Assembly: GCF_022867795.2 (NCBI RefSeq)
Contig: NZ_CP107006.1
Coordinates: 4,092,001 to 4,156,000, forward strand
DNA length: 64,000 bases
Source of the DNA: Chitinophaga horti
Lineage (GTDB): Bacteria > Bacteroidota > Bacteroidia > Chitinophagales > Chitinophagaceae
Reading direction: 5' to 3'
How positions within the stretch are numbered: position 1 is the first letter of the stretch; each line of letters starts with the position of its first letter. The notes beneath the pieces were generated by a model, which worked only from the letters and a program-made list of their open reading frames with translations, searched no databases and had not been told where the DNA came from. A program made the position numbers and the translations under genes. Of the stretch, positions 31,361 through 36,366 are shown piece after piece.

Positions 31361-31415
31361 GAGAGTTATGTGAAAGTTATCCGAGAGTTATCTGAGAGTT
31401 ATCTGAGAGTTATGT
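31361..31415. repeat. Five tandem 11-bp units, GAGAGTTATCT
   Basis: Units start at 31361, 31372, 31383, 31394 and 31405 with at most three changes each. The repeat lies about 300 bp upstream of the histidine kinase gene. AGTTA recurs every 11 bp (22 bp for alternate units), close to the spacing of LytTR-type direct repeats. Confidence 0.85.
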
Positions 31416-31710
31416 CCACCCCACCCCCCAACTTGTCCACTTCACGATAAAATACCTCGTCCCCCACCCGCCTCTCCAAGACCTTCGCCTTACAATCATT
31501 CACATGAAAAAGATCGTCGATTTACTTCTTCCCTCCATCAATGTGTTAACCCGAAACAGCGATCCACTTGGCGCTGTGAAACAAACTAATGCCGGCGTTT
31601 TTAGTGTCAGCTATGCAGCCCGGAGTCTGGGGAACAAAAAATACGACAGCATGCGGTGACTGAAGCCGGCAACCTGCAATCCATAAAATTATGCTTACTT
31701 TAACACCTCC
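31416..31710. other. Leader region of the two-component operon
   Basis: Starts with a C-rich run (ccaccccacccccc) and includes the possible small ORF at 31504. No TAnnTTTG promoter was found for the histidine kinase gene. Confidence 0.4.
31504..31659 (+). CDS. Possible small ORF or gene fragment, 51 codons
   Basis: An ATG at 31504 opens 51 codons beginning MKKIVDLLLPSINVLTR and ending before a TGA at 31657. It is upstream of the histidine kinase gene on the same strand. There is no recognisable domain and no strong ribosome-binding site; it may be a remnant. Confidence 0.3.
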   Translation: MKKIVDLLLPSINVLTRNSDPLGAVKQTNAGVFSVSYAARSLGNKKYDSMR

Positions 31711-33615: not shown

Positions 33616-34005
33616 TTAGATAACCGGCACCGGCATTGCGCCGTAAATCCGGCGAAACATTACATAAGTAACACTTACCATGACGAACGCAATAATGGCA
33701 TCTGTGGTGGCTGCGAAGCCCAGTACCGCGAGTTTGGAGAAGAAGGCGAACAGGATATCGAAGAAAATACCTGCAAATACCCATTCTTTCAACCGAAGCA
33801 GTTTGCCAGGCAACAATAATACGATCACGCCACTCACTTTAGCAACGCCCAGGATGTAAATAAAATGCGCCGGATAGCCGAGTTGCTGCGTGATGTCCCA
33901 TACGATCGGGTTGCCTGTCAGTTCAAAAAAGCCGCTGGTGCCGAACCATAAAGAAGTAAGAATAACGCCGGTCCAATAAATGATGTTTGTTGTTTTGCCT
34001 GACAT
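33616..34005 (-). CDS. DoxX-like membrane protein
   Basis: 129 residues with four hydrophobic helices (about 8-28, 45-65, 72-92, 97-117) and the DoxX-family pattern of short loops with FGTSGFFELTGNP and YILGVAKVSGVIVLL. DoxX proteins are small inner-membrane proteins linked to redox or thiol stress in several bacteria, but the biochemical role is poorly known. Its promoter carries two LytTR-like boxes at 34085-34113. It is on the minus strand, convergent with the two-component genes. Confidence 0.88.
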   Translation of the reverse strand: MSGKTTNIIYWTGVILTSLWFGTSGFFELTGNPIVWDITQQLGYPAHFIYILGVAKVSGVIVLLLPGKLLRLKEWVFAGIFFDILFAFFSKLAVLGFAATTDAIIAFVMVSVTYVMFRRIYGAMPVPVI

Positions 34006-34036: not shown

Positions 34037-34113
34037 CAAAGTTGCACCGAAAGCGGGCTACAGTCCAGGTATAAGCGCCGGAAGCGGACAATTCACAGCC
34101 CGGAACGGACAAT
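34037..34113 (-). promoter_or_regulatory. Two-box operator and -7 element of the DoxX gene
   Basis: In coding orientation: ATTGTCCG (34113-34106), 13 bp, ATTGTCCG (34092-34085), exactly 40 bp, then CAACTTTG (34044-34037), one base off TAnnTTTG. Box period is 21 bp. The same layout occurs at 35448-35524 and 35542-35618. Confidence 0.8.
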
Positions 34114-34515
34114 CTACGGCATCATGGAAGGCTGCATCGACAGGATGTATTTTACCCGCTCATCGCGTGCCTGCGGGGTGCCCTGTTCTACCTGGTAATC
34201 AATAGCTGTTGTGCCGACCTCGAGGCGCTCCACCCGCAGCAACTCACCATTGATCGTACTGCCATAAAAAAGAGGGTTGTCGTGGTACTTCCAGGTAACG
34301 AGCGTGTAGTTTGCGCCGGGCAGGGTGTCGCCTTTTAAGGCAGCGTTAAACGCAGATGGATTGCCGTAGAGGACAGACATCGTTTCCTGCCGCTTATTCA
34401 CGCGGGAAGTAATCATTTGTTCATCGCCCGGATCAAAAACAATCCGTGTATGCGTGTCTGTCTCTTTACAAGCCGTGAGTGCGAGCAGACCGGCCAGCAG
34501 GTATTGCATCTTCAT
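34114..34515 (-). CDS. Small hypothetical lipoprotein
   Basis: 133 residues with a lipoprotein signal peptide and lipobox LTAC near residue 16. The rest has no domain I recognise; it is polar, with YTLVTWKYHDNPLFYG suggesting a small beta domain. It starts 5 bp after the stop of the P460/haem-binding gene and is almost certainly translated from the same mRNA, so it may act with that protein in the periplasm or outer membrane. Confidence 0.78.
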   Translation of the reverse strand: MKMQYLLAGLLALTACKETDTHTRIVFDPGDEQMITSRVNKRQETMSVLYGNPSAFNAALKGDTLPGANYTLVTWKYHDNPLFYGSTINGELLRVERLEVGTTAIDYQVEQGTPQARDERVKYILSMQPSMMP

Positions 34516-34520
34516 AAAAG

Positions 34521-35426
34521 TTATTTTACAGGATTTACTTTTAAAGGAACATTAAACAGGTAGCCGGTTTCTTTTGCCAACTGGCGATGGCAACTAATGC
34601 AGGACTGCACCGCGAACTGGGCCGTTTTACCAGTAGGCGTTAGTTTCGGGCCGGAGAACTTCGCGAAGCCCCAGCCTTCCGTATCAGGATACTTGCCGGC
34701 ATCCTTCACCATAAATTGTGCATTGATAAATTTACCCGGACGCGTTTCGCCGTCGGGTGCTTCTAACTGTTCCCATACGGCTTTCACGACGATAGCACCA
34801 TCAGGCCAGGGATGAAAATTTTCCTCGCGGATCGCTTTCACGGCGATGTCGTTCCCATACACCACCCGCATCGAATGATCGTATAACGTAGTAGCGCTGA
34901 TCACCTTCCAGCTTTTAAATTCATCTGAATACACAATACCATTGGGCGAAACCGGGGCCGAAGGTGATGCCGGCTTGCTGTAAGCGGTCGTATCTGCCGG
35001 TGGCTGATGGGTAATAGATAACACGTAGTTTTTAATCGTCTCCACTTCCGCTGCATTCACCTTAGCACCGGGATGCAGCAGCGTGTAACGGGACAAAGGC
35101 ATCGCGCCTGATTTCACCATATTCAGGATACCCCAAAGCTTGCCTACCTGCTCCTTTTCCGACAACTTATTCCATTCAGAAAAGTTCAGCACTTCCCTGG
35201 CCCGCTCCACGTCCTTATTCACCTGCCATGATACAGGAGCCACGCGGTTAAACCAGGGCAGTTCCTGCGTATTCGAATGGCAATCGTAACAAGCCCGTTG
35301 AAAGATGGCGGTCACTTCTGCCGGAGCGACAATGTCGCCCGTTATTGGCTTTTGGGGCAGCGGCGTCGCGGTAAACTGCAAAGCGAAAAACGCGATGGCC
35401 AATCCGCCGATCATATACTTTCTCAT
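34521..35426 (-). CDS. Haem-binding domain and cytochrome P460 domain protein
   Basis: 301 residues from the ATG at 35426; a longer frame reaches 35603 but lacks a signal peptide and covers the promoter. A signal peptide or anchor (about 1-22) is followed by a haem-binding domain with CYDCHSN near residue 46 and a cytochrome P460-like domain (about 160-300) ending with a second haem motif CISCH. Both CxxCH motifs predict covalently bound haem c, so the protein should act in the periplasm, perhaps in redox or nitrogen-oxide chemistry. It has the two-box LytTR-like operator and is co-transcribed with a small lipoprotein gene. Confidence 0.88.
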   Translation of the reverse strand: MRKYMIGGLAIAFFALQFTATPLPQKPITGDIVAPAEVTAIFQRACYDCHSNTQELPWFNRVAPVSWQVNKDVERAREVLNFSEWNKLSEKEQVGKLWGILNMVKSGAMPLSRYTLLHPGAKVNAAEVETIKNYVLSITHQPPADTTAYSKPASPSAPVSPNGIVYSDEFKSWKVISATTLYDHSMRVVYGNDIAVKAIREENFHPWPDGAIVVKAVWEQLEAPDGETRPGKFINAQFMVKDAGKYPDTEGWGFAKFSGPKLTPTGKTAQFAVQSCISCHRQLAKETGYLFNVPLKVNPVK

Positions 35427-35447
35427 GGTGTACGCTTTATTGTTACT

Positions 35448-35524
35448 CAAAACTAGCAGTGGCTGCCCGCTTTGGCACGTAGCAAGTCCGGGAAACGGAC
35501 AAAACGGGGGCTGAATCAGACAGG
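35448..35524 (-). promoter_or_regulatory. Two-box operator and -7 element of the P460 gene
   Basis: In coding orientation: CCTGTCTG (35524-35517), 13 bp, TTTGTCCG (35503-35496), exactly 40 bp, then TAGTTTTG (35455-35448), a perfect TAnnTTTG. The box period is 21 bp. Confidence 0.8.
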
Positions 35525-35541
35525 GGGTATTCCCGTTGCCG

Positions 35542-35618
35542 ATTGTCCGGTACAACGGGTGATCTGTCCGGCAGGCGGCATTGCTTCTTCTCCCCTGCCA
35601 CAACGCCCGTTACATTTG
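35542..35618 (+). promoter_or_regulatory. Two-box operator and -7 element of the DUF1223 gene
   Basis: ATTGTCCG (35542-35549), 13 bp, TCTGTCCG (35563-35570), exactly 40 bp, then TACATTTG (35611-35618), a perfect TAnnTTTG. The box period is 21 bp, as at the two neighbouring promoters. Confidence 0.82.
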
Positions 35619-35634: not shown

Positions 35635-36366
35635 ATGAAAACACTCACACTCATGCTCACACTCACGGCCGCCCTGATCTGTAATCGCCCGTTTGCCGCA
35701 CCCTCCATCGTAAAAGGAGGCGACAGCAGCTTCGCAGTGATCGAATTATTCACGTCGGAAGGTTGCTCCAGTTGTCCGCCCGCCGACCACCTGATCGCAC
35801 AACTGCGTGAGGCCGATACCGCCAGGCAGTTATACATTTTAGCGTTCCACGTCGACTACTGGGACCACCAGGGATGGAAGGACCGGTTTAGCCAGGCAGC
35901 CTGGTCACAAAGGCAACAGGCTTACGCCACCTGGCTGAACCGGCGGCAGATATACACGCCGCAATTGATCGTAAACGGCACCAGTGAACACATCGGGTCT
36001 GATGCAAATGCGGTAACCACGGCCCTGTCAGCGGCACTGGCGGCTTCGGGTGACAGGCAGCTCCGTATTTCAGCGGCCATCGACGGGAAGTTCATCGACA
36101 TCTCTCATACGAACACACGTAACAACTTACAACTGGCCCTTGTACAAAAGGACGGGCGCAGCAACGTGCGCCGTGGGGAGAATGCGGGTAGCGAATTGGT
36201 GCATGTGCAAATTGTGCGGGAATTGATAACGGTGCGCGCTGGGGAAACAGGCAACGTGCGGATGCGTTCACCACAGGATTTCGATGCGAAGACGTGGGAG
36301 TTGATTGGGTTTGTGCAGGATGCGGAGAGTGGGCGGATTACGGACGCGGCGCGGTGTACATGGTAG
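35635..36366 (+). CDS. DUF1223 family thioredoxin-fold protein
   Basis: 243 residues with a signal peptide of about 20 residues. Residues about 35-120 have the DUF1223 hallmark VIELFTSEGCSSCPPADH, a thioredoxin-like fold with a CxxC pair in a CSSCPPAD context, and YILAFHVDYWDHQGWKD further on. The C-terminal half is beta-rich (ELVHVQIVRELITV). The family is secreted and probably redox-active but uncharacterised. It is transcribed away from the P460 gene and has its own LytTR-like two-box operator. Confidence 0.92.
   Translation: MKTLTLMLTLTAALICNRPFAAPSIVKGGDSSFAVIELFTSEGCSSCPPADHLIAQLREADTARQLYILAFHVDYWDHQGWKDRFSQAAWSQRQQAYATWLNRRQIYTPQLIVNGTSEHIGSDANAVTTALSAALAASGDRQLRISAAIDGKFIDISHTNTRNNLQLALVQKDGRSNVRRGENAGSELVHVQIVRELITVRAGETGNVRMRSPQDFDAKTWELIGFVQDAESGRITDAARCTW

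Follow-up and report, generated by a model that had tools for sequence, protein, structure and literature searches.

Three adjacent promoters in Chitinophaga horti, preceding the genes for a DoxX protein, a P460 protein and a DUF1223 protein, carry the same pair of TGTCCG-like boxes, which raises the question of what reads these boxes and to what end. The window analysed here, a stretch of 64,000 nucleotides (contig NZ_CP107006.1, positions 4,092,001 to 4,156,000), also encodes a histidine kinase and a LytTR response regulator, and the initial annotation proposed that the LytTR protein controls the three genes through two-box operators. The rarity of the operator, its conservation and its co-occurrence with the regulator support this proposal at the level of sequence. 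We consider it very probable (roughly 0.87) that the kinase and the LytTR regulator form a two-component system that would activate a local regulon through paired operators as part of a stress response. The same operator and LytTR pair recurs over much of the phylum Bacteroidota. The features of the locus are collected in Table 1.

Table 1. Predicted regulatory elements and genes of the locus (positions are those of the window)
Feature	Position	Strand	Basis or remark
Fourth candidate operator, TGTCCA-N15-TGTCCA, then CTTCACG	31413-31439	+	Second-highest matrix score in the window (26.8 bits)
Degenerate -7 element GACCTTCG	31480-31487	+	4/6 of the consensus, exactly 40 bp past the fourth operator
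51-codon ORF, probable N-terminal remnant of an alpha/beta-hydrolase target gene	31504-31659	+	tblastn, HMM
Histidine kinase, PF06580	31711-32721	+	Pfam (E 4e-25), hydropathy
Response regulator, receiver PF00072 and LytTR PF04397	32702-33463	+	Pfam, both above cut-offs
DoxX_2 membrane protein, predicted target	33616-34005	-	PF13564
DoxX promoter -7 element CAACTTTG	34037-34044	-	40 bp past the operator, one mismatch (5/6)
DoxX operator, TGTCCG-N15-TGTCCG	34085-34111 (boxes 34111-34085)	-	Pattern scan and matrix scan
133-aa protein, probably cotranscribed with P460	34114-34515	-	Follows P460 in many relatives
Haem_bd and cytochrome P460 protein, two CxxCH motifs, predicted target	34521-35426	-	PF14376, PF16694; motifs from translation
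P460 promoter -7 element TAGTTTTG	35448-35455	-	40 bp past the operator, 6/6
P460 operator, TGTCTG-N15-TGTCCG	35496-35522 (boxes 35522-35496)	-	Highest matrix score in the window (30.3 bits)
DUF1223 operator, TGTCCG-N15-TGTCCG	35544-35570	+	Zero mismatches to the full pattern
DUF1223 promoter -7 element TACATTTG	35611-35618	+	40 bp past the operator, 6/6
DUF1223 thioredoxin-fold protein, signal-like N-terminus, predicted target	35635-36366	+	PF06764

Inspection of the promoter sequences confirms, at all three promoters, the layout first described for them: two boxes with a 21-bp period, oriented with the gene, and a gap of exactly 40 bp between the proximal box and the -7 element. The operators had also been called identical, which holds for this layout but not base by base, as the distal P460 box reads TGTCTG and the DoxX -7 element carries one mismatch. 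Promoters of the Bacteroidota primary sigma factor have a -7 element TAnnTTTG at -12 to -5 (PMC9723704); the P460, DUF1223 and DoxX promoters match it at 6/6, 6/6 and 5/6 positions, the start sites themselves being predicted. Scoring with a weight matrix derived from other genomes, the window being excluded, gave 30.3 bits for the P460 operator, 26.8 bits for a site at 31413-31439, 22.3 bits for the DoxX operator and 8.6 bits for the DUF1223 operator, against a maximum of 14.2 bits in the reversed window. The low value for DUF1223 arises because the TTC part of the operator is absent.

Within the 6.3 Mb genome the pattern is almost private to this locus. Genome-wide scans used patterns with mismatches allowed rather than the matrix. 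Exact TGTCCG-N15-TGTCCG occurs twice, both times here, and when the -7 element is included (TGTCCG-N15-TGTCCG-N40-TAnnTTTG) the three named promoters, with 0, 1 and 1 mismatches, are the only matches at up to one mismatch. Scanning to three mismatches revealed no other place within two, and five further matches with three mismatches each, compared with 12 for the reversed pattern. The pattern thus does not occur at random genome-wide frequency. A genome-wide regulon was considered and rejected: the genome has no extra matches above chance, and near-exact sites only at this locus give no sign of one. In 11 other genomes, most pattern matches likewise cluster around the LytTR locus.

As all three promoters lie within 1.6 kb, their likeness might be attributed to chance or to recent duplication of one segment, with no shared regulator involved. 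This is hardly credible, given that nowhere else in the genome is the full pattern matched with two or fewer mismatches, that the spacers and flanks of the three promoters are unlike one another, and that an identical architecture precedes orthologous genes in many genera. Shared ancestry of the promoters had earlier been judged unlikely; the architecture is retained across genera, which would fit duplication and convergence alike.

The initial annotation named the upstream pair LytS and LytTR. The regulator deserves its name, having both the receiver and the LytTR domain; its gene overlaps that of the kinase by 20 bp, and its phosphorylation-site residues D8, D55, T80 and K100 are invariant in an alignment of orthologues. 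LytS kinases are defined by a 5TM-5TMR_LYT sensor domain (PMC5552118). In the kinase encoded here this domain (PF07694) is absent even at E values up to 10, PF06580 being the only Pfam domain above cut-off, and LytS is therefore the wrong name. Hydropathy places the hydrophobic segments of the kinase within residues 5-128. The genome has 34 LytTR domains; the flanks of 30 were scanned and an operator was found only beside this one, with no site of at least 11 bits near the 29 other scanned LytTR genes.

The operator code can be read more fully from relatives. Alignment of LytTR orthologues led to 80 named loci in 19 Bacteroidota genera, on which the weight matrix was trained (window excluded); its last column falls 30 bp short of the -7 element. 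These loci are LytTR-selected and lean to Flavobacterium, Mucilaginibacter, Pedobacter, Dyadobacter and Chryseobacterium, hence the site counts are not independent events. The matrix finds 228 sites in the 80 loci, as against 46 when the sequence is reversed, and 213 of the 228 precede a gene. The consensus operator is TGTCYRNTTCR-N6-ATTTGTCCGNTTCRNC, with half-sites TGTCYRNTTCR at a 21-bp period. A second half-site at 21 bp accompanies 63 and 52 of 182 anchors, and any other offset at most 7. At a gap of 40 bp, TAnnTTTG is perfect in 109 of the 213 sites and matches at 5/6 or better in 172; at any other gap the corresponding numbers are at most 6 and at most 10. For sites of at least 30 bits, 112 of 116 have a -7 element of at least 5/6 at this gap. 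An operator promoter is present in 74 of the 80 loci, leaving six without a strong one, and in L091, L092, L093, L097 and L098 the operator is present with a poor -7 element at gap 40. In several genera, operators precede P460 and DoxX orthologues at the equivalent position. The boxes are thus conserved upstream of orthologues in many genera, for the most part together with the -7 element at gap 40.

Some variants of the repeat were also encountered. Promoters at L089 (12738/12759), L091 (10521/10500) and L087 (10172/10193) can be scored in two registers offset by 21 bp, suggestive of three tandem half-sites. In G008, a genome of the same family, about seven 21-bp tandem TTGTCCGTYTT half-sites stand directly before a 657-aa ORF (L109:9849-9980, +). 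This genome has no close LytTR (best 40% identity), and the array is perhaps read by a different regulator of similar half-site. The Terrimonas genome G164 has 166 matches of TTGTCCG-N14-TTGTCCG on several contigs (e.g. L083); these belong at least partly to a heptamer repeat, TTGTCCG/TTGACCG, that is scattered genome-wide and apparently unrelated to the operator. TTGTCCG pairs in L105, L106, L107, L110, L111, L114 and L115 were dismissed as chance matches; they are intragenic or have no -7 element.

Since the 80 loci were chosen by their LytTR gene, two further tests were made without LytTR selection. (i) A search of 200 genomes of the family gave P460 homologues in 20; their 20-kb surroundings were analysed, with 18 genomes entering the comparison. 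Each of the 11 genomes whose LytTR reaches 50% identity has a P460 operator of at least 18 bits, as against one of the seven without such a LytTR (Fisher p about 4e-4, relatedness ignored). The exception, G056, has an operator of 32.3 bits with a perfect -7 element (L087:10172, -) and no LytTR above 34% identity. In G061 the LytTR orthologue is on a separate contig from the operator-bearing P460, and G098 has an additional P460 copy, distant from the LytTR, that likewise bears an operator, as expected for a trans-acting factor. The P460 copies at L090, L101 and L104 have no operator. (ii) Among 395 class-level genomes searched with the pattern at up to three mismatches, all five with a close orthologue matched, each at most 5 kb away from the LytTR gene, versus 15 of the 390 without one. 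At up to two mismatches, only G510 remains among the 390, its match lying about 270 bp from the gene of a 37%-identical LytTR. In the P460-selected and the class-level genomes alike, the operator follows the LytTR protein, the co-occurrence that the initial annotation had put forward as a check.

AraC/XylS proteins also read direct half-sites two helical turns apart, and the 21-bp period fits the AraC and LytTR families alike. A regulator of this or another kind might bind the operators, with the LytTR pair a mere neighbour, and AraC-family genes do occur in some loci (clusters in 12 and 13 of the 80). The tracking of LytTR by the operator in both tests makes this very unlikely. Moreover, the 80 loci have no AraC protein or further regulator in common, whereas the kinase and LytTR are conserved, the loci being LytTR-selected, and Pfam recognised no other regulator among the tested genes beside the window operators.

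We propose that a membrane signal would cause the kinase to phosphorylate D55 of the regulator. Once active, two regulator molecules would together occupy the two direct half-sites which, at 21 bp or two helix turns apart, would lie on one face of the DNA. If the -7 element is set as -12 to -5, the operator spans about -79 to -46. None of 82 non-redundant promoters, the set left after similar sites were removed, carries a -33 element (TTG at 19 bp upstream of the -7 element), and the bound pair therefore most likely recruits RNA polymerase. Recruitment would activate DoxX, the P460 operon and DUF1223. Elsewhere in Bacteroidota, the regulator would control an alpha/beta hydrolase, an epoxide hydrolase, a cupin, OsmC/Ohr and, in some cases, its own kinase. 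Repressing LytTR regulators exist, PlnD being termed a repressor (PMC2714321), and a few loci combine a strong operator with a poor -7 element at gap 40. That the LytTR protein binds these sites mainly to repress, or activates only with a second factor, is nonetheless unlikely, as an operator upstream of the core promoter at fixed distance and the absence of a -33 element constitute an activator layout.

The site at 31413-31439, which the initial annotation missed, is a fourth candidate operator and is new here. The short ORF that follows it contains KQTNAGVFSVSYA, which weakly resembles KQINAGVLNVGYA of the alpha/beta hydrolases of relatives (tblastn E 0.004). A hydrolase HMM scores the ORF above all 1000 shuffles, yet with an E value of only 0.057. 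No intact copy of the hydrolase was found in the organism's own genome. The likeliest reading of this region is that a hydrolase gene and its promoter have decayed beside the kinase gene. In the LytTR loci of other genomes, the kinase gene is itself preceded by an operator at 12 sites.

What the regulon does may be judged from the genes behind the operators. In the 80 loci these are, by cluster, the alpha/beta hydrolase (49), DoxX (37), DUF1223 (28), P460 (23), cupin (14), the kinase (12) and OsmC-type proteins (11), making the hydrolase the commonest target in relatives. The OsmC-type protein of L117 is an Ohr above the NCBIfam curated cut-off, OsmC is found in L116 and L146, and in L160 one operator precedes a gene for an epoxide hydrolase. 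Pfam identified no OsmC/Ohr gene among the target genes in the window. DUF1223 belongs to the thioredoxin fold class (PMC3091736). The 133-aa protein has a weak likeness to the cytochrome P460 domain (E 0.0079, under the Pfam cut-off); it accompanies P460 in most relatives, whether LytTR is nearby or not.

A membrane redox and haem stress response had been suggested for the regulon. This is only half right. For its haem part the suggestion depends on the P460 protein, and a minority of the loci, 30 of the 80, encode one. The mixture of hydrolases, OsmC/Ohr, cupin, DoxX, DUF1223 and diheme P460 leads instead to organic-hydroperoxide or electrophile stress of the envelope, which the gene content suggests is a better fit to the target list than haem stress. 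The probable trigger of the system would thus be the presence, in the envelope, of organic hydroperoxides or other lipophilic compounds that are reactive. More tentatively, one may picture an undescribed Bacteroidota two-component system whose membrane kinase has no LytS sensor and would sense the damage that organic hydroperoxides or lipophilic electrophiles do to the envelope and, with one LytTR code, call upon a modular defence set of DoxX, DUF1223, diheme P460, Ohr/OsmC, alpha/beta and epoxide hydrolases and cupin. In Flavobacterium johnsoniae, a LytTR regulator or its adjacent kinase was mutated in five of five lines coevolved with B. thailandensis (PMC10197871). That pair, FJOH_RS09515/FJOH_RS09520, was considered as the orthologue and set aside; its published reference base is G46, base 46 of the F. 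johnsoniae orthologue studied here is C, and it is therefore probably another LytTR pair.

LytTR sites generally comprise two repeats of 9-11 nt, 11-13 nt apart (PMC4847170); the half-site here is 10-11 nt long and its two copies are separated by about 10-11 nt, at the low end of the quoted spacing. YpdB reads direct repeats of GGCATTTCAT (PMC4847170), which has TTTCA in common with the present half-site, TGTCCGTTTCA, and is similar in repeat length and separation, a resemblance rather than proof of common recognition. The YpdA/YpdB and BtsS/BtsR systems of Escherichia coli are alike in having a kinase with a receiver-LytTR regulator, paired half-sites and a small target set. Their kinases, however, have 5TM-5TMR_LYT and GAF sensor domains (PMC5552118) and the kinase here has neither. 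They respond to pyruvate. Here the predicted target genes encode stress-type enzymes and membrane proteins. AgrA of Staphylococcus aureus is among the Gram-positive LytTR activators that bind paired direct repeats upstream of promoters; these activators differ from the present system in half-site sequence, targets, signal and promoter type, which here is the Bacteroidota -7 TAnnTTTG. In enzyme content (Ohr/OsmC, DoxX, cupin and hydrolases), relatives of this locus overlap with regulons known from other phyla, namely Ohr/OhrR and those for quinone or electrophile stress. Such regulons are governed by one-component MarR-type repressors, unlike the membrane kinase and LytTR regulator found here.

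A LytTR two-component system with direct-repeat operators is of a known kind. The regulator, with its operator code, its promoter geometry and its set of targets, appears undescribed: searches of the accessible literature, outside which most subscription papers lie, turned up no account of the regulon or operator, and the searched literature gave no operator for any Bacteroidota LytTR regulator. LytTR regulators can be numerous in this phylum, as the count for this genome illustrates. The present one comes with a sharply defined operator, a fixed geometry and predicted targets in 19 genera, including the genetically tractable F. johnsoniae, so that both the DNA code and the signal are directly testable. 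It would also bring together, in one predicted response, the poorly understood DUF1223, DoxX_2 and Haem_bd-P460 proteins and an uncharacterised alpha/beta hydrolase.
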